This document shows, piece by piece, positions 49,282 through 58,357 of a stretch of 63,975 nucleotides of DNA (position 1 is the first letter of the stretch; every line of letters begins with the position of its first letter). The notes below the pieces were generated by a model. It was not told the DNA's origin. It made no database searches and worked only from the letters and a program-made list of their open reading frames with translations. The stretch is from NCBI GenBank assembly GCA_003021505.1, contig PXPT01000030.1, positions 1-63,975 of the forward strand, in the 5' to 3' direction. This stretch comes from Cyanobacteria bacterium QS_4_48_99. GTDB taxonomy: Bacteria > Cyanobacteriota > Cyanobacteriia > Cyanobacteriales > Rubidibacteraceae. The position numbers and the translations under genes were made by a program.

Positions 49282-51423
49282 TTAACTAACCGTACCTGTA
49301 AGCGGAGAACTCGCACTCGCGTAGCTTTTGATCGGGATGCGTCCAGCAAGATAGGCAAATCGTCCGGCTTCGGTTGCTAAACCCATTGCCCGTCCCATAG
49401 CGATGGGATCTTCCGCATGGGCGATTGCGCTATTCACTAACACGGCATCTGCCCCCAACTCCATTGAATAATCCGCCTCAGAAGGAGTACCAATCCCGGC
49501 ATCTACCACCACAGGGACATTTGCTTGTTCAATAATGATTTGGATATTCGCTGCACACTTAACCCCCTGCCCAGAACCAATGGGCGACCCCAAAGGCATT
49601 ACTGTAGAGCATCCCACCTCTTCAAGCTGCTTTGCCAATACGGGGTCAGCATTAATATAAGGCAGAACTGCAAAACCTTTGTTTACTAACTGTTCCGCTG
49701 CCTGCAATGTGCCCACGGGGTCAGGCAGCAAATACTTAGTGTCGGGAACCACCTCTAGCTTCACAAAATTGTTGTCTTCTTGCCCAACTATCTTCGCCAT
49801 CTCTCGTCCAAAGTTGGCGACTCGCACTGCCTCCTCAGCGGTTTTGCATCCCGCAGTATTGGGCAGCATCCACAACTTTGTCCAATCTAGCGCCTCTGCC
49901 AATCCTTCGTGCCCAGGGGCTTGGGTTTGCACGCGACGCACCGCCACCGTCACAATCTCGCTCCCACTGGCAGCAAGACTTTGGCGCATCACCTCCATGT
50001 CTGCATACTTACCAGTGCCCGTCATCAGGCGAGATTGAAAGGTACGCCCCGCGATGGTTAACTCATTATCGCTCTTGCGATTAGCGGTGGAATTCCATTC
50101 CGTTGTTGGTTGTGGCGAGTGACTTGTAACCATTAACTTCTGACCATTATTCCCTTCGCAAGTGTACCGCTTCGTAGAGTGAGAGTTGCCAGTGACTCCT
50201 GAGTAGAATCGATCATAGCGAAAATGCCCCAGTAAGGGATGAGACTTTTGCTGCAAAATCAAGTCTGCCAGGATTGAGGCGGTAATCGGTGCTAGCAAAA
50301 TGCCGTTGCGATGATGACCTGTGGCTAAGACAAGATTCTCACAGGAACTGCTACCGAGAATGGGTAATAAATCAGGGGTTGTCGGTCGAAATCCCCACCA
50401 CAACTCTTCTATTGACCAGTGCTGGATCTCTGGATAGATGCGAGTGGCTCGCTCAATTAGTGTGCGAGTTCCGGCTGGGGTATTGTGGGGTGTCCAGCCT
50501 ACCTCCTCCACTGTCGCGCCAATAATTAAACGTCCGTCTCGCCGAGGAACCAGGTAATTGTCTGTTCCAAATAGCACCTGCTGGATAGGTAAGGGTTGAT
50601 GGTGGGCATGGGTCATTCGCACCGACATCATTTGCCCTTTCAGCGGACGCACCGGAAGCGGCAATAATTCCCTTGCATAGGCACCACTTGCTAAAACATA
50701 CTGATTCGCTCGAAATTCTCCCGCAGACGTTCTTAAGCTGACTACTGAACAATTCTGTCGCTGGATGGCTTCTACGCTGACACCTTCGCGTAAATCGACC
50801 CCCAGGGATTGGGCAGCTTGCCGCAGGGCTTTCATTAACGCCCGGTTGTCTACTTGAGCATCTTCGGGATACCACCAGCCCCCTACTACCTCAGCACCGA
50901 GTCCCGGCTGATAAAGTTGAATGGCTTCTTTGTCTAACCAGGTTGCATCCGAGTTCTGTGTCGAGTAGGAATTGGCTGGTGGAGATTGCAGAGGTGCGGA
51001 GGTGCGAAGGTGCAGAGGGGAAATAGTTTCGTGTGCGTTAGCCTCTCCTCTGCCACTCTGCTCCCCTGCTCCTCTGCTTTTTTCTTCCCTACTCACCTGC
51101 TCCCTATTTTCCCAAGAGGGCAATTCATAAACGGGTGCTAGAATTCCGCTGGTCCAGTAACCTGTATCAACGCCAGTGAGTTCTTCAAGCTTACGAATCC
51201 ATGCTGGGTACAAAGCACGGGATTCTAGGCACAAATCCAACATGGGGCTGGGTGGAATGCCTTCGGCTTGCGGGGCAATCATCCCGGCGGCGGCGTGGGC
51301 GGCGGCTTGCTGGTAGTCACGGCTGAGTACAGTCACAGTTGCGCCACGGAGTTTTAGTTCTACAGCGATCGCTAAACCCATGACACCGCCGCCAATCACT
51401 ATTGTGTCACTTGCTGCATTCAT
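49282..51423 (-). CDS. Fused glycine oxidase ThiO / thiazole synthase ThiG
   Basis: 713 residues from [21 protein letters not shown]; the frame runs to 51471 but the extra 16 residues are not conserved. ThiO part about 1-390: FAD motif [13 protein letters not shown] and [13 protein letters not shown]. It oxidises glycine to dehydroglycine. ThiG part about 455-713: [20 protein letters not shown], catalytic lysine in FVKLEVVPD and [19 protein letters not shown]; it forms the thiamine thiazole. The fusion is normal in cyanobacteria. Unusual: about 42 extra residues near 105-147 encoded by an inserted repeat (50988-51112). Follows DUF4079 by 62 bp. Confidence 0.93.
50988..51112 (-). repeat. Foldback repeat, copy B, inserted in frame in thiO
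   Basis: GCAGAGGTGCGGAGGTGC at the left end, core GGGGAAATAGTTTC, then CTCTCCTCTGC and CCTCTGC at 51071-51077. The same design and core occur at 5390-5490. On the thiO strand it encodes [17 protein letters not shown] and flanking charged residues with no stop codon, lengthening ThiO. The matching hypothetical translation of copy A reads SETISPQHLSTWAPLH. Confidence 0.7.
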
Positions 51424-51485
51424 TTTGGGTTGCTCGTTGTTTGTGATCTGTTGCGATGCTCGAGTTACCAATTACCAACAACGAA

Positions 51486-51923
51486 TTAAGGCAGATACTG
51501 TTGCACCACTTCCCAGCCAGTCAGCGAAACGAAAATAAAGCCCAACAATAAAACCGCATTTGTCCCTAAATGGAGCGATCGCGCCCAGGGACGCTTAGGG
51601 CTGATTTGGGTAGCACTCCCAGCCGAAATTAGCACCAACACCACCACGGACAGCCCAGCGATCAGATGGGGTGAGTGTCCAATGCTACCACGATAACCTA
51701 ACGTACCAACTAGACCAATCGCCAGCAGAAGTAAGACTAGAAACACCAGAATGGCACCTGTGATGTAGTGAAAGGGGCGCAGCCAGCCGGGGCGGGTATG
51801 CTTATTCGCGCGTCGGTAAAACATGCTAATCCCTGTTATCCCCAGTAGCAAATAGGCAACACTCGCTAAACCCATTGACCAAGCAGCAATTTTCCAGAGC
51901 CAGAGAAAAGAAGGTAGATCCAA
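51486..51923 (-). CDS. DUF4079 membrane protein
   Basis: 145 residues with four transmembrane helices, about 8-33, 50-75, 83-105 and 118-140. The pattern LRPFHYITGAILVFLVLLL, GHSPHLIAGLSVVVLV and RSLHLGTNAVLL, with histidines in three helices, fits DUF4079, a heme-b-like membrane family of unknown role in cyanobacteria and plastids. It ends 62 bp upstream of thiO-thiG on the same strand, so co-transcription is possible though no functional link is known. Confidence 0.8.
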   Translation of the reverse strand: MDLPSFLWLWKIAAWSMGLASVAYLLLGITGISMFYRRANKHTRPGWLRPFHYITGAILVFLVLLLLAIGLVGTLGYRGSIGHSPHLIAGLSVVVLVLISAGSATQISPKRPWARSLHLGTNAVLLLGFIFVSLTGWEVVQQYLP

Positions 51924-52027
51924 AATGCGATCGCCACGCCTCGATTAACCGACACTTCCATGATAGAAACTAAGGGGCTGCCAGATCTGACAACCCCGAA
52001 CCTTAATAATGTTTTGGATATTACTAA

Positions 52028-52348
52028 TCAGAGCTTGGCAGTTGCTGTTGTGCCTGTGTTGTTTTGAATATCTGTTTTTGAGCCGTTGCTTTCGTTAATG
52101 CTAAGGCGATCACAGGGAATAGTATCTGAAACAATCGCACTTGCCATCATTCCCGTATGAATTTCTAACAAAGCTTCTGGCACTGCTTCAAACATTAAGC
52201 GTTGTCCTGGAAATACTACCCGCTCAAAGTACCAGTTGGCAATATTTGTAATCCGAGCAACCTGGATCTTGCTCGTGGCATTGACGTAACAGCAAAGGAC
52301 ACTATTTTCTTGCTGCGTATCGGGGACGGGATCAATAAGTTGAGACAT
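52028..52348 (-). CDS. DUF1830 protein
   Basis: 106 residues. The core VLCCYVNATSKIQVARITNI, ANWYFERVVFPGQRLMFEA and IHTGMMASAIVSDTIPCDRL is the DUF1830 signature, found only in cyanobacteria and plastids and of unknown function. The N- and C-termini are polar. Divergent from the radical-SAM gene with about 473 bp between them. Confidence 0.85.
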   Translation of the reverse strand: MSQLIDPVPDTQQENSVLCCYVNATSKIQVARITNIANWYFERVVFPGQRLMFEAVPEALLEIHTGMMASAIVSDTIPCDRLSINESNGSKTDIQNNTGTTATAKL

Positions 52349-52821
52349 GATACCTGAGAGCCTTACCTTATTTTCTTTACTTAACTTTACATTTGCTATC
52401 TGATTCTAAGTTAACATAAGCGATCCCCGTTGGTTGTCTATCTGAATACAAATCTTGTTTTCCGCATTATTATTGGTGGCAATTAGCGACTGTCGGCAAA
52501 GATGTGCTGAGTTAATTTTTCCCCCGCTAGGGGCGAGGATGTTTCTTAAAGCCGGGAAAAAGCTAACCTATATTAATATGACGGCGACTTCTACCGCTAA
52601 GTTAAGATTTATAAAAGTTCCTCTAAGCATTCCCGAACTTGCTGTAGGCTAACTCAAATCTTCTGGTTATTGACACTAAAGGCGATCCCAGACTTTGCAC
52701 TATAGTAGAGTGGACGATATCTTTCCTCAGATAGGGATTTTTTATCATAATAGAAAGTGAGAAAACTTAACCGGACAAGCTCATTAACCCAACCCCTCTA
52801 ATCTAAGATTAAGAACTGCCG
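52349..52821. other. Divergent intergenic region DUF1830 / radical-SAM gene
   Basis: About 470 bp without a supported gene; a 65-codon plus-strand frame (52455-52652) has no recognisable content. A TTGACA at 52674-52679 and TATAGT at 52705-52710 are present but spaced too far apart to be a normal promoter pair. A small CCCCCGCTAGGGGCG dyad lies at about 52522-52536. Confidence 0.4.
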
Positions 52822-54390
52822 ATGACACAGCGAATCCTATACGTTCGTCTCCCCTGCAATCCTATTTTTCCCATTGGTGTCGTCTATCTCGCTGACCACA
52901 TTCATAAATGCTTCCCAGATATAGAACAGCGGATATTCGACATGGGAACGGTTCCTCCCCTAGATTTCGGAAAATCCCTTGATGCCTGTATCGATGAGTA
53001 CCAGCCCACGCTGCTGGTATTTTCTTGGCGCGATATCCAGATTTATGCTCCCGTCGGTGGTCGAGGTGGCAATCCCCTCCAGTATGCATTTGAATTCTAC
53101 TACGCCAAGAATCCTCTCAAAAAGCTGCGAGGCGGATTAGGTGGCTTGCGGGTAACAGCGGCTTACTACGGCGAACTCTGGCGCAACCAGGGTCTAATCA
53201 AGCGAGGGCAAAAACGAGCCCAGAGGTACCAGCCAGATGCTCGTATTGTCGTAGGCGGCGGTGCTGTTAGCGTTTTCTATGAGCAGCTAGAGCAGAAGTT
53301 GCCCAAAGGGACAATTGTTTCAGTCGGTGAGGGAGAAACCCTACTGGAAAACTTGATTCGCGGTGAGGATTTCTCCGGTGAGCGCTGCTATGTAGTGGGC
53401 GAAACCCAACCACGCGAGCAGATGATTCACGAACGCCCCACTCCAGTGGAAAAAACCGCCTGTGATTACGACTACATCGAAAGGATGTGGCCCGAGTTTA
53501 AATATTACCTGCAAGAAAGCGACTTTTACCTGGGCGTTCAAACCAAGCGTGGCTGTCCTCACAATTGCTACTACTGCATTTACACCGTTGTGGAAGGGAA
53601 GAAGGTGCGTGTCAATCCCGCCGATGAAGTCGTGGCAGAAATGCGCCAGCTCTACGACAGAGGCATCCGCAACTTCTGGTTCACAGATGCACAATTTATT
53701 CCAGCGAAAAAGTACATTGGTGATGCTATTGAGTTATTAAAGAAAATTGATAACTCCGGCATGACGGATATCCACTGGGCAGCATACATTCGGGCAGACA
53801 ACCTAACGCCAGAATTATGCGAACTAATGGTGAAAACTGGGATGAACTACTTTGAGATTGGAATTAGCAGTGGCTCGCAAGAACTAGTCCGAAAAATGCG
53901 GATGGGCTACAACCTGCGTACTGTGCTGCAAAACTGCCGGGACTTGAAAGCCGCTGGCTACGACGACCTAGTTTCGGTCAACTACTCCTTTAACGTTATT
54001 GATGAACGATGGGAAACAATTCGCCAAACCATCGCCTACCACCGCGAGTTAGAGCGGATTTTGGGCGAAGATAAAGTAGAACCTGCCATCTTCTTTATCG
54101 GCTTGCAGCCCCATACCCATTTAGAGGAGTATGCTCTCGAAAACGAAATCCTCAAGCCCGATTACAATCCCATGAGCATGATGCCTTGGACGGCGAAAAA
54201 ACTCCTGTGGAATCCAGAACCTCTGGGTTCTTTTTTCGCAGAAGTTTGCCTTCAAGCTTGGCAGCAAAATCCCCATGATTTTGGTCGCGAAGTCATGAAG
54301 ATTCTGGAAGAAAGAGTAGGTTGCGCCGAACTCGAAGAAGCGCTCACCGCCCCGTTAGAACAAAACAAAAAGCTCCCTGCTCTCTCATAA
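52822..54390 (+). CDS. B12-binding-type radical SAM protein, PSII high-light acclimation family
   Basis: 522 residues. Residues 1-190 are a B12-binding-like Rossmann domain (MTQRILYVRLPCNPIFPIGV, VVGGGAVSVFYEQ, IVSVGEGETLLENLI). The radical-SAM core, about 235-450, has the 4Fe-4S cysteines C245, C249 and C252 in RGCPHNCYYC. The whole N-terminus matches the cyanobacterial family named photosystem II high light acclimation radical SAM protein. The substrate is unknown. First gene of a plus-strand run: the DICT/HD gene starts 37 bp on and the pentapeptide gene 19 bp after that. Confidence 0.85.
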   Translation: MTQRILYVRLPCNPIFPIGVVYLADHIHKCFPDIEQRIFDMGTVPPLDFGKSLDACIDEYQPTLLVFSWRDIQIYAPVGGRGGNPLQYAFEFYYAKNPLKKLRGGLGGLRVTAAYYGELWRNQGLIKRGQKRAQRYQPDARIVVGGGAVSVFYEQLEQKLPKGTIVSVGEGETLLENLIRGEDFSGERCYVVGETQPREQMIHERPTPVEKTACDYDYIERMWPEFKYYLQESDFYLGVQTKRGCPHNCYYCIYTVVEGKKVRVNPADEVVAEMRQLYDRGIRNFWFTDAQFIPAKKYIGDAIELLKKIDNSGMTDIHWAAYIRADNLTPELCELMVKTGMNYFEIGISSGSQELVRKMRMGYNLRTVLQNCRDLKAAGYDDLVSVNYSFNVIDERWETIRQTIAYHRELERILGEDKVEPAIFFIGLQPHTHLEEYALENEILKPDYNPMSMMPWTAKKLLWNPEPLGSFFAEVCLQAWQQNPHDFGREVMKILEERVGCAELEEALTAPLEQNKKLPALS

Positions 54391-54427
54391 CCTCCTGCGT
54401 CCGGTGTGATTTATTCAGTTAATCATT

Positions 54428-55837
54428 ATGTTAGAAGGCTCCATTCTAAAAAAGTTATACGCCAACCACCAAAACGGTAAAAAGCCCCTGAACCTGGGAG
54501 TGTATTACAAAAACACCCTAGTTGCTCTGTGTCATGCCTTAGAAGACTTCATTCTAGAGTCTGATAGCGAACCACTGATAATTTCGGTCTTCCAGAAAGG
54601 CAAGTGGTACATGCAAGAGGCAGAGCGTTATGGAGAAATCGCCCAGAAGGCATCTCAGGTAGCAATTCTGGGAACCTCGGATTCAGGCTTTGCGGAACAC
54701 CCCACGGGTGAAATGTTAAACGTGTCGCTGGTGAGTATGGAAGCAAATGACCCGTTGACGCGGGAGTGGCACTTAATCATTCTCTCACCAACTTACACAG
54801 CAATGGTTCTGTGTCAGGAGCTATCCGAGTCTGATTATGGCAACTTGGGACAGCCCAGCAACGACCTAGAGCGAAAATTCTACGGTTTCTGGACATTTGA
54901 GCCGGAATTGGTTTGGGAAACGGCAGAGTTAGTTATTGCTCATATTGGCAGTTACGACCGAGAGTTGCAAGAAGCTTTAACCGCTAAGAAAGGAGAAATG
55001 ACTGTCTCCTTCGGTTTCCAGGAACAGGAAGACCTCGGGGAGGTAGTCTGGCGTGTGGTGGATTATCTCCAGGACACTCAGCAGAATATCTCCCAGCCTT
55101 CGGAAGCTTCCTATCTTCCCTCTTCCGAGGCGCTAGATAACAACCTGGTTTCCAACGAGATACAAGCCTTCTTGCGAATGGCGCAGCTCACCGACCAGGT
55201 AGATGTTACTAATCCCAATGCTGCGGCTGAGGTAACGGCACTGGCAGAAACGATGGCGCACTTATTAGATTTACCCGCTTGGCAGCAGAAGCGCCTGCGC
55301 CTTGCAAGTTGGTTGCACAGGCTGGTGCAGTCGATGGGAACAACAGCCGTTTCTTCCCCGGAAACAGCAGCTAGCTGCGCGCTCAGTTGCACTCTAGATC
55401 CGGGAGTGCAGGCATTACGAACCAGACCAGAGTTACGCGCGATCGCCGAGATCATAACGCATCAGACCGAGCGTTGGGACGGCACTGGCTATCCAGGCGG
55501 ACTAGCTTACGATGACATTCCGCTAGAGTCAAGAATTCTGGCGCTGGTTGCAGACTTTCAGTGGCAAGTCAATAACATCCGGTTATACCAGCCAGCGGAG
55601 AATGATCCATACCCTAGCCGCGAAGAAACGTTTTCCCAAGCATTGGCAGAGTGTCAGGCAGAAGCTAATCAGGCATTTGACCCGAAGCTGATTGAAACCC
55701 TAGGACTGGTAGTGATGGGAATGCAGCAGGGAATGGACTTACAGACCAGTCAACCGAATATTACATCGGGGATGTGGTTGCTAGACTCCCCCACAGACCA
55801 AGAGGCGCAGTTAAGCGCTTCTAGCCAACAAACCTAA
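54428..55837 (+). CDS. DICT sensory domain plus degenerate HD-GYP-like domain
   Basis: 469 residues. The N-terminal part, about 1-180, fits the DICT sensory domain (LLVALCHALEDFILE-type start, LIISVFQKGKWYMQEAERYG, ILSPTYTAMVLCQELS). The C-terminal part, about 245-440, is HD-GYP-like: HQTERWDGTGYPGGL (345-359) retains the GYP motif, but the expected HD metal pair is LHRL (296-299) and the HHE motif is HQT. It therefore probably lacks c-di-GMP hydrolase activity and may act as a sensor. The gene lies between the radical-SAM and pentapeptide genes. Confidence 0.75.
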   Translation: MLEGSILKKLYANHQNGKKPLNLGVYYKNTLVALCHALEDFILESDSEPLIISVFQKGKWYMQEAERYGEIAQKASQVAILGTSDSGFAEHPTGEMLNVSLVSMEANDPLTREWHLIILSPTYTAMVLCQELSESDYGNLGQPSNDLERKFYGFWTFEPELVWETAELVIAHIGSYDRELQEALTAKKGEMTVSFGFQEQEDLGEVVWRVVDYLQDTQQNISQPSEASYLPSSEALDNNLVSNEIQAFLRMAQLTDQVDVTNPNAAAEVTALAETMAHLLDLPAWQQKRLRLASWLHRLVQSMGTTAVSSPETAASCALSCTLDPGVQALRTRPELRAIAEIITHQTERWDGTGYPGGLAYDDIPLESRILALVADFQWQVNNIRLYQPAENDPYPSREETFSQALAECQAEANQAFDPKLIETLGLVVMGMQQGMDLQTSQPNITSGMWLLDSPTDQEAQLSASSQQT

Positions 55838-55856
55838 GCTAAAGCGAACAACAAAA

Positions 55857-56537
55857 ATGGAAGTAGATGCAATTCGTGCCGGAAAACGCAAACAACTGTC
55901 CGGAGTAGATTTAGAAGACGAAAACCTTTCTGATAGCCAGTTAGAGCAGGTTAATTTTGCTGGCGCTAACCTAGTGGGAACCGATTTTTCTGGCTCCCAC
56001 CTGAGAGCTGCCCGTTTCGATGGTGCTAACTTACTAGGTGCCCAATTGACCTCTACCGATTTGCGGGCACAACTGCTGGGAGCAAATCTCGTGCAGGCTA
56101 ACTTGAGTAGTGCTGACTTGAGAGGCAGTAATCTCCGAGGCGCTAACTTAATGGGGGCGAAACTAGATAGGGCATCCCTGGCAGGGGCGTTTCTTAGTGG
56201 TGCTAATTTAAACAGCGTCAACTTGCAAGGCGTTGACTTTCGAGGCGCTGACTTGCGAGGCGCAAATTGGAACGGTGCTAATCTCAAAGGCGCAAATCTC
56301 TCCCAGGCAGAGTTACAGGGGGCAAGCCTCAGCGAAGCCAATCTAGAAGAGGCAGACTTGCGAGGGACAAATCTTGCTGGGGCGAATCTCGCGGGAGCCA
56401 ACCTCCTCTGCGCTGAGTTAGAGGGCACTAACCTTGAGAGCGCCAACCTCGAACAAACTTGCCTAGTAGGAACATCCGCAACTGAGCAACTCAGCTCGGA
56501 AGAGACACCTGTGGCCACACCCACCCTCTCCTACTAG
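55857..56537 (+). CDS. Pentapeptide-repeat protein
   Basis: 226 residues, of which about 30-210 are A(D/N)LxX pentapeptides (FAGANLVGTDFSGSHLRAA, ANLSSADLRGSNLRGANLMG), enough for roughly nine coils of a right-handed quadrilateral beta-helix. The start MEVDAIRAGKRKQLSGVDLE and the acidic end are typical of cyanobacterial RFR proteins. Function is unknown; such proteins can mimic DNA or act in regulation. Third gene of the radical-SAM/DICT run, starting 19 bp after it. Confidence 0.88.
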   Translation: MEVDAIRAGKRKQLSGVDLEDENLSDSQLEQVNFAGANLVGTDFSGSHLRAARFDGANLLGAQLTSTDLRAQLLGANLVQANLSSADLRGSNLRGANLMGAKLDRASLAGAFLSGANLNSVNLQGVDFRGADLRGANWNGANLKGANLSQAELQGASLSEANLEEADLRGTNLAGANLAGANLLCAELEGTNLESANLEQTCLVGTSATEQLSSEETPVATPTLSY

Positions 56538-56788
56538 CTATGCCCGAGGACAAAAATAGGAGTAATAGATTTTATAGGCTACGCAAAACTTCTCATCAGG
56601 AACTAATAGCAGTTTAGGGTGTATTGCAAAGCACCCTTAAGATCCAGCTATTGCGTAACTCCTGTTTGATTTTATTTATAGTGTTCGGTCGTCGGTAGAA
56701 ACTACCAAGACTTACAGGTTATACTAATTCTCTAAAATAGAGATACAGATAGACAGAACTACCGAGACTGGAGAAGGGTATAGCTGGT

Positions 56789-57873
56789 GTGCTCAAAATT
56801 GAGGTCGCCGAATCGGTAGACCAGCTCAAAGAAATGCTCGAAAAGCAGCGGTATGACACCCAGCGCAGCAAAGTGCAGGTGCTGTGGTGGCTGAAAACTG
56901 GGCAAGCCCAACAAGTCAATCAACTCACTCATTTGAGTGGCTACCATCGAACCACGATTTCCAGTTGGCTCTCGAAATCTCGTTAGGGAGGACTCGATGC
57001 CTTGCTGGCGGTACGTTCTAAGCCGGGACGACCTACGGCTATCACCGGTAAGATTCGGCAACAGTTAGAGCGAGAACTCGAAGACTCGGAGGGCTTTAGC
57101 AGCTATAAAGAAGTTCAACGGTGGTTGCATGCTTTGGCGGTGTGCAGGTGCCTTACTTTGGCAGTGCATAAAACGGTGCGCTATCACCTCAAAGCGAAAC
57201 TGAAGCAGCCCCGCCCTCGTTCGGAAAAGCAACTTCCTGGAGCAGTTGAGTCCTTTAAAAAAACGCCGGAAACATCATGCAGTCTTACCGGAGTGACAAT
57301 CAACAGCGTCAGCATGCTGGGCAGATTCGTTACGCTCTGTGCCGACGAGAGTCGGGTGGGTCTGTTGAGTGTGCAACTCGTAAACTCACTGGCTTGGGAG
57401 TCAAACCCGTCGGTGAGCTACAGTCGCAGTTTCTCTACCGTTGGCTCTACGGGATAGTCGAGCCTCTCAGTGGTGAGGATTTTATGCTGGAATTCTCTCA
57501 CCTGGACAGTTTTTGCTTTGAGGAGTTTTTATAAGCGATACCCCCGAGGGCGTCATGCCTTCGGCAGATCGCGCAGATGTATCCCCACGAGTTACACCTG
57601 ATTCAGGTTGACAACGCCCAAGCTCATAGCGCCCAGACCTTGACAGTTCCTAACAACATCATCCTGCTATTTCAGCCTCCCTACTGCCGGGAGGTTAATC
57701 CAATTGAGCGGGTGCTCGAACTCAAACGATGGCTACAGTGGCAGCATTTTGATTCCATTGCAGACCTGCAGCAGGCGATTAGTCGATGGGTGAATAGACT
57801 AACGCCTCGACGACTGCAATCGCTCACTCAATGGGGTTGGCTAGTCGATGGTCTATGTGTAGCGGGTATTTAG
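56789..57873 (+). pseudogene. IS630-family transposase, disrupted
   Basis: Helix-turn-helix part: MLKIEVAESVDQLKEML then THLSGYHRTTISSWLSK, ending at TAG 56984-56986; the same frame resumes as GLDALLAVRSKPGRPTAI. A frameshift near 57370-57400 leads to LGVKPVGELQSQFLYRWLYG and EPLSGEDFMLEFSHLD, closing at 57534. After an insertion (57535-57572) the C-terminus reads LIQVDNAQAHSAQTL and QPPYCREVNPIERV, the DNxxH and NPIE catalytic blocks. Not functional. Confidence 0.8.
57535..57572. repeat. 38-bp mini-repeat inserted in the IS630 transposase
   Basis: GCGATACCCCCGAGGGCGTC and onwards to GATCGC interrupts the transposase between FEEFL and MYPHELHLIQ. The ends are GCGAT/ATCGC and the core has a CCCCCGAGGG dyad. 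It resembles other short palindromic repeats of this genome. Confidence 0.5.
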
Positions 57874-57886
57874 AGAATTGGTATTA

Positions 57887-58357
57887 GGCAGTTACTACGA
57901 TACTAGTATTTCTCCGTAACGCACTGCCTCACCATAAGATGTCCGTCCTGAACCGAAACCATTTTGAGTTGACCACACTTCCTATTCGACGCGAACCCCT
58001 AGATTGATTTATGGGGATAGGAGGCGTGGTCACTTCTAATGCTTTTGACCAATGACCGGCAGCAGAGCAGCTCTCTTTTAAAAAGTGTGCCTTCTTGCTG
58101 TCTCTGCTGTGAAATAGGCGGCGAGCCATAATACTTACGTATTAAGGCAGCTTAATTTACGAAAATTACGTGTTATTTCGGTTGCCATCCATTTTTTCCC
58201 TACAGTAGCTTTGGCTGGCACACATCAGTTAGATGTATCTATCCGAACTTATCTGACAGGTTCTGGCTAAGTGTTTCTATCTGTTTTTCTGTGAGGCTTT
58301 GAAAGTAGTCTCTGAAATACCTCAAGCACGTTCCTATCAAAGCTAGAGCGCAAAGTA
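57887..58357. other. Intergenic region with long hairpin (57971-58031)
   Basis: No supported gene. GACCACACTTCCTAT (57971-57985) pairs with ATAGGAGGCGTGGTC (58017-58031) with one mismatch and one G-U, and an inner CCCC/GGGG stem is possible. This could be a mobile mini-element or a structured transcript end. A 66-codon minus-strand frame through it looks like a shadow of the repeat. Confidence 0.5.

Follow-up and report, generated by a model that had tools for sequence, protein, structure and literature searches.

Loss of Slr0320 renders the cyanobacterium Synechocystis PCC 6803 sensitive to high light and slows electron transfer from QA to QB, and the activity of photosystem II (PSII) in the same mutant is normal with an added quinone acceptor (PMC8065906). 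Slr0320 combines B12-binding-like and radical S-adenosylmethionine (SAM) domains, and its discoverers themselves raised quinone methylation as a possibility (PMC8065906). Here we analyzed a locus coding for a protein of this family, with the same two kinds of domain, in Cyanobacteria bacterium QS_4_48_99. The window, meaning the whole stretch of DNA that was analyzed, comprises positions 1 to 63,975 of contig PXPT01000030.1 (assembly GCA_003021505.1; 63,975 nucleotides). Within it, the gene of the radical-SAM enzyme is followed by genes for a protein with DICT, CHASE6_C and HD-GYP-like domains (DICT-HD protein) and for a pentapeptide-repeat protein. The examined passages of the Slr0320 account mention no linked DICT or repeat gene (PMC8065906).

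The other components of the neighbourhood also have described relatives. A review counts DICT and CHASE6_C among sensory domains whose purpose is not known (PMC8846402), and DICT-HD proteins of Microcystis carry the motif YR-GVP in a survey that left their activity open (PMC7063779). The gene divergent from the radical-SAM gene codes for a DUF1830 protein, a domain shared with PirC/CfrA (Sll0944), a PII partner controlling carbon flow, and with PirN, which binds PsbO (PMC13205821, PMC6603209). Sll0944 binds both PII and phosphoglycerate mutase (PMC12077085), and expression of cfrA increases in NtcA-dependent acclimation (PMC11142378). In the part of the matches from the open-licence literature that was examined, we found no description of a link between radical-SAM, DICT, pentapeptide-repeat and DUF1830 genes for Slr0320; the families are known, their combination in this locus was not found described.

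Our results demonstrate that the three-gene locus is real and widely conserved, and that its parts also occur separately. The explanation we favor, with about even confidence, is a conserved locus of two separable units in series, namely the Slr0320 enzyme and a regulatory pair of sensor and repeat protein.

Conservation of the gene order

Up to 8 kb on either side of the radical-SAM gene were compared in 120 genomes, approximately one per genus. This sample consisted of 82 enzyme-matching genomes from the window's class and 38 of 43 further genomes (G026, G067, G083, G161 and G244 were dropped); it was chosen rather than random, and some contigs end early. A DICT-HD gene was located downstream of the radical-SAM gene, on the same strand and within 2 kb, in 51 of the 120 loci, which belong to 16 families. 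Two more loci carry it 3.9 and 6.1 kb downstream. In 47 of the 51 linked loci, no more than 305 nt separate both genes, and a pentapeptide gene followed the DICT-HD gene in 48 of the 51. No pentapeptide gene (at least 50% identity, within 4 kb) was found in the loci without DICT-HD. Order and strand are the same over all 16 families, in contrast to the more distant neighbours, which vary. A second comparison relied on the best 80 of 488 named relatives of the DICT protein, mostly Nostocales by title. Of these 80, 76 have the enzyme gene upstream, 78 are followed by the repeat gene, and 68 display enzyme, repeat and divergent DUF1830 genes together; one of the four relatives lacking the upstream enzyme gene has only 29 nt of upstream sequence.

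In the window, the coordinates of the open reading frames agree with the original prediction of three plus-strand genes, with gaps of 37 nt between the radical-SAM and DICT-HD genes and 19 nt between the DICT-HD and repeat genes. The predicted products, a member of the Slr0320 PSII high-light family, a DICT protein with a degenerate HD-GYP-like domain and a pentapeptide-repeat protein, were all recovered by profile searches, and the conservation of gene order, which had been proposed as a check, is borne out by both comparisons. CHASE6_C and the divergent DUF1830 gene are additional features. With one common strand and short gaps, the three genes likely form an operon. Promoter- or terminator-like matches were absent from the two gaps in scans that performed near chance level, and no RNA family was detected in positions 51900-57900 at E values up to 1.

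The sensor and repeat genes as a separate unit

The DICT-HD pair does not always accompany the enzyme. Among the 114 loci with 2 kb of downstream sequence, it follows the enzyme gene in 51 and is missing behind it in 63, which weakens the case for one single system. Moreover, DICT genes detached from the enzyme gene kept an adjoining repeat gene in 18 of 20 fetched cases (17 identified by tblastn and one, L210, by clustering of open reading frames; L193 and L207 are without repeat gene). Sixteen of the 29 class genomes below the enzyme cut-off, all at least 95% complete and free of a large partial enzyme match, served as the enzyme-less test set. Six of the 16 contain a DICT-HD relative with 44-55% identity, and the repeat gene adjoins it in five of these six. 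An in-frame stop was present in two of the six relatives; DICT-HD genes with one such stop were noted at L343 (G161) and L345 (G012), in genomes without the radical-SAM gene. As the pair is kept both when detached and in enzyme-less genomes, sensor and repeat gene constitute a tight unit, whose separability makes the position behind the enzyme common but optional.

The repeat protein itself contains pentapeptide repeats over the Pfam cut-off and did not reach the curated cut-offs of HetL (135 versus 260) or Qnr (76 versus 240).

Two other explanations of the linkage bear on these counts. The adjacency might be inherited synteny, a slow-moving neighbourhood without functional meaning. The 63 unlinked loci and the occurrence of each unit alone are in line with such a history, and a single joining event may underlie every linked case, but order and strand would then have persisted over 16 families while the outer genes changed; we consider this explanation possible rather than probable. 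Somewhat less likely still is a model of a single functional complex, in which the radical-SAM enzyme is under direct control of a light- or redox-sensing DICT-HD protein and the repeat protein serves as adaptor or substrate. This model draws on the adjacency in 51 of 120 loci from 16 families and on a motif upstream of the enzyme gene (see below), which by a stricter profile score was found in 47 of 50 linked versus 36 of 66 unlinked loci, a difference confounded by lineage. Against it stand the pairs that occur detached or in enzyme-less genomes, as well as by the loci in which the enzyme has no pair beside it. The same evidence bears on the 'sensed modification system' of the original prediction. 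Its widely conserved order stands, its unity is weakened by the separability of enzyme and pair, and as a description of the locus it is unproven. For a direct control of the radical-SAM enzyme by the DICT-HD sensor we found no support beyond gene order.

The radical-SAM enzyme

The first gene product scored 1063.3 bits with NF045585 (rSAM_slr0320, 'photosystem II high light acclimation radical SAM protein'; cut-off 775) and exceeded the cut-off of Pfam Radical_SAM. The cysteines of its CxxxCxxC cluster motif (C245, C249 and C252) are invariant across 120 aligned sequences, as are C12, C189 and C476. The predicted structure has a mean predicted local distance difference test score (pLDDT) of 80.0 and is weak at residues 72-83 and 240-260. 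Its closest solved fold is TsrM (Z 24.0, root mean square deviation (rmsd) 3.1, 425 aligned), followed by AprD4 (Z 21.8), OxsB (Z 21.6) and MgmA (Z 20.4). These nearest folds, with Z from 20 to 24, share only 13 to 19% identity with the window enzyme and belong to proteins with other substrates. TsrM and OxsB are cobalamin enzymes according to their structure titles, and MgmA presumably is one as well. The modeled fold points to methylation as the likely activity of the Slr0320 family.

Within the window's class, 262 of 291 genomes encode the enzyme over the NF045585 cut-off; the 29 others indicate that it is not indispensable. In a draw of 59 genomes from the whole phylum, the cut-off was exceeded in 20 of 21 genomes from this class and in none of 38 from other classes, where the best score was 87.2 bits. 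Since the other classes of the phylum are non-photosynthetic, the enzyme is tied to the photosynthetic class.

The DICT-HD protein

DICT (139.7 bits), CHASE6_C (83.4 bits) and HD_5 were all detected over their Pfam cut-offs in the second gene product, whose AlphaFold model has a mean pLDDT of 88.1. The N-terminal half, consisting of DICT and CHASE6_C, resembles a phospholipase-D-like (PLD-like) fold with a modest but consistent signal: residues 18-177 aligned with TrmBL2 (Z 11.1, rmsd 3.9, 136 aligned), and similar values were obtained with NucT (Z 11.0, rmsd 3.4, 134 aligned) and TrmB (Z 10.8, rmsd 3.4, 133 aligned). The ligand-binding domain of TrmB and TrmBL2 thus has a PLD-like fold in common with the sensor half, at 10% identity and modest Z, and no DNA-binding domain was seen in the DICT-HD protein. 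The catalytic PLD motif HxKx4D was absent from the first 230 amino acids in all 72 aligned DICT-HD proteins. A sequence search of the PDB with the DICT-HD protein retrieved HD-domain entries and two designed proteins, and no natural relative of the sensor half.

The C-terminal half shares its fold with the HD-GYP cyclic di-GMP (c-di-GMP) phosphodiesterase PA4781 (4r8z; Z 15.8, rmsd 4.0, 184 aligned). HD-GYP phosphodiesterases keep metal-binding residues that are lost across the DICT-HD family. The aspartate of the HD motif is replaced by arginine in 71 of 72 aligned rows, and the two histidines of HHE by glutamine in 60 and threonine in 46 of the 72. Alignment to 4r8z confirmed the HHE register; for the HD register, we relied on the family motif and the similar YR-GVP change in the Microcystis survey (PMC7063779). 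This family-wide loss suggests that the DICT-HD protein is probably a pseudo-enzyme. With both halves looking like dead enzymes kept as folds, the protein would be suited to ligand sensing and protein contact. An active c-di-GMP phosphodiesterase, as might be deduced from the HD_5 match, the DGTGYP sequence retained in the window copy and HD-GYP fold Z values of 15 to 16, is very improbable and was rejected on the lost metal-binding residues, the comparable Microcystis proteins having been left open as to activity.

The divergent intergenic region

Most of the sampled loci contain a conserved element 38-348 nt before the radical-SAM start codon. Eight-mers of TATCGTAAAG occurred in 36 of 117 upstream regions, compared with 0.6-0.8 expected. 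On the other strand, the motif reads as a 10-bp direct repeat resembling HLR1, the RpaB box KTTACAWW-N2-KTTACAWW (PMC13421787). The agreement between family motif and HLR1 amounted to 12.9 of 16, a value reached by none of 5000 column permutations. As a control, HLR1 with at most 2 mismatches was recovered at 7 of 20 psaA promoters versus 2 of 100 shuffles. The window carries a one-mismatch HLR1-like site that was equaled in none of 100 shuffles of the region, but this site adjoins the DUF1830 gene. RpaB control of the radical-SAM gene is best regarded as a lead. That the upstream motif represents a short coding peptide was dismissed by eye, as some loci have in-frame stops. At detached DICT genes a motif score above 0.4 was reached in 7 of 20 cases versus 2 of 60 shuffles, which is suggestive only. 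Four detached DICT genes (L191, L192, L193 and L195) have a common upstream sequence resembling the radical-SAM motif.

On the opposite side of this region, 80 of the 120 loci have a DUF1830 gene in divergent orientation no more than 2 kb away (74 of the 108 loci whose upstream sequence extends that far), and the domain is present in 283 of 291 class genomes. The sequence GTAN8TAC was found in 76 of 81 divergent regions (the 80 loci and the window), whereas shuffled regions gave a mean of 5.4 (standard deviation 2.1, n = 100). The boxes are located 64-90 nt from the DUF1830 start in 70 of 79 cases, and TAN3T follows 19-25 nt after 76 of the 79; box and spacing together correspond to the NtcA promoter layout (PMC2758279). 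Given the NtcA box in the relatives, PirC seems a better candidate for the neighbour than PirN. The idea that the DUF1830 protein is an obligate substrate of the enzyme was weakened by mismatched presence across genomes, because DUF1830 is kept in seven enzyme-less genomes (G012, G060, G082, G203, G165, G232 and G157) and missing in three enzyme-bearing ones (G067, G274 and G156). A second, short DUF1830 match was noticed in the window's genome (contig C102, 402-521; 56.6 bits, profile positions 13-52).

Features of the locus and its surroundings

The features of the locus are compiled in Table 1. A gene for a DUF4079 protein recurs near both units: 30 of 120 enzyme loci carry it upstream, at a distance of up to 3 kb, and it follows the repeat gene in four enzyme-less genomes of one genus (L345-L348). 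Beyond it, an FAD-dependent oxidoreductase fused to ThiG is encoded on the minus strand of the window at 49282-51471 (DAO 21-403, ThiG 471-722). Downstream of the repeat gene, broken-looking transposase remnants extend from 56789 to 57873, the last open reading frame showing a weak DDE_3 match (24.5 bits, under the cut-off of 28.6).

Table 1. Features of the Slr0320-family locus in the window (positions of the window).
Feature	Position	Strand	Basis or remark
Slr0320-family B12-type radical-SAM protein, 522 aa	52822..54390	+	NF045585; cluster Cys 245, 249, 252; model closest to TsrM
DICT (residues 5-131), CHASE6_C (146-222) and degenerate HD_5/HD-GYP (239-421) protein, 469 aa	54428..55837	+	Pfam; lost metal residues; folds
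Pentapeptide-repeat protein, 226 aa, DICT-HD partner gene	55857..56537	+	Pfam PF00805, 204 bits; neighbourhood counts
DUF1830 gene (PirC/CfrA/PirN family), divergent from the radical-SAM gene	52028..52348	-	PF08865, 121 bits (cut-off 25)
Divergent intergenic region, without exact NtcA box; weak profile match for the radical-SAM upstream motif	52349..52821	.	
HLR1-like site, 1 mismatch	52376..52393	+	close to DUF1830 start; at least 429 nt from radical-SAM start
DUF4079 membrane-type protein gene adjoining the DUF1830 gene, recurrent neighbour	51486..51923	-	PF13301, 122 bits

Discussion

In the explanation we favor, the locus consists of two units in series. The first is the B12-type radical-SAM enzyme Slr0320, as far as sampled confined to the photosynthetic class. 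It would most likely act as a cobalamin-dependent C-methylase or by close chemistry, and its product would tune the quinone side of PSII. The second unit would be a soluble ligand sensor, whose PLD-like DICT/CHASE6_C half lacks the PLD motif and whose HD-GYP half has lost its metal ligands, together with a pentapeptide-repeat partner that the sensor probably binds and releases. Where it lies behind the enzyme gene, this unit is predicted to be co-transcribed and probably shares the promoter of the enzyme, which in most sampled lineages would comprise a conserved HLR1-like repeat and face a PirC-type gene that is transcribed divergently and preceded by an NtcA box. Sensor and repeat protein would then be made along with the enzyme and need not act on it. 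A light/nitrogen context for the locus is plausible.

Several observations weigh against parts of this explanation. On the side of the enzyme, the Pfam B12-binding domain of the window protein remained under its cut-off (24.4 versus 32.1 bits), and the fold ranking second, that of AprD4, belongs to an enzyme not known to use cobalamin. The motif profile exceeded the 1% shuffled threshold in 89 of 120 upstream regions but was trained on the same regions in which it is counted; the window is included with a weak match and has no clear copy of the motif. Single sites differ from HLR1 by 2-5 mismatches, which speaks against the RpaB reading, and the radical-SAM motif profile was not raised at the 20 psaA promoters (median approximately 0 versus -1.6, maximum 11.9 versus 12.9). 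Unlike the 76 divergent regions with an NtcA-type box, the window and four further loci are without one, the window region having one-mismatch sites only. Finally, the Slr0320 protein of wild-type Synechocystis does not respond to high light (PMC8065906), which counts against a simple high-light induction.

A more far-reaching version of the two-unit explanation is conceivable, though we regard it as doubtful. The divergent region would act as a conserved two-way switch. Expression of the carbon/nitrogen regulator would be under NtcA, and an HLR1-type regulator such as RpaB would drive that of the PSII acceptor-side enzyme and of any pair linked to it. The sensor of two dead folds and its repeat partner would represent a new ligand-gated regulator tuning PSII quinone chemistry to carbon/nitrogen status.

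Slr0320 is near-universal in the sampled photosynthetic cyanobacteria, and its loss slows PSII electron transfer. The conserved neighbourhood, with a PirC-type regulator and a pair of dead sensor and repeat protein, supplies named partners, promoter elements and strains for probing the role of the enzyme, and the locus offers a place to test how light and nitrogen signals meet.

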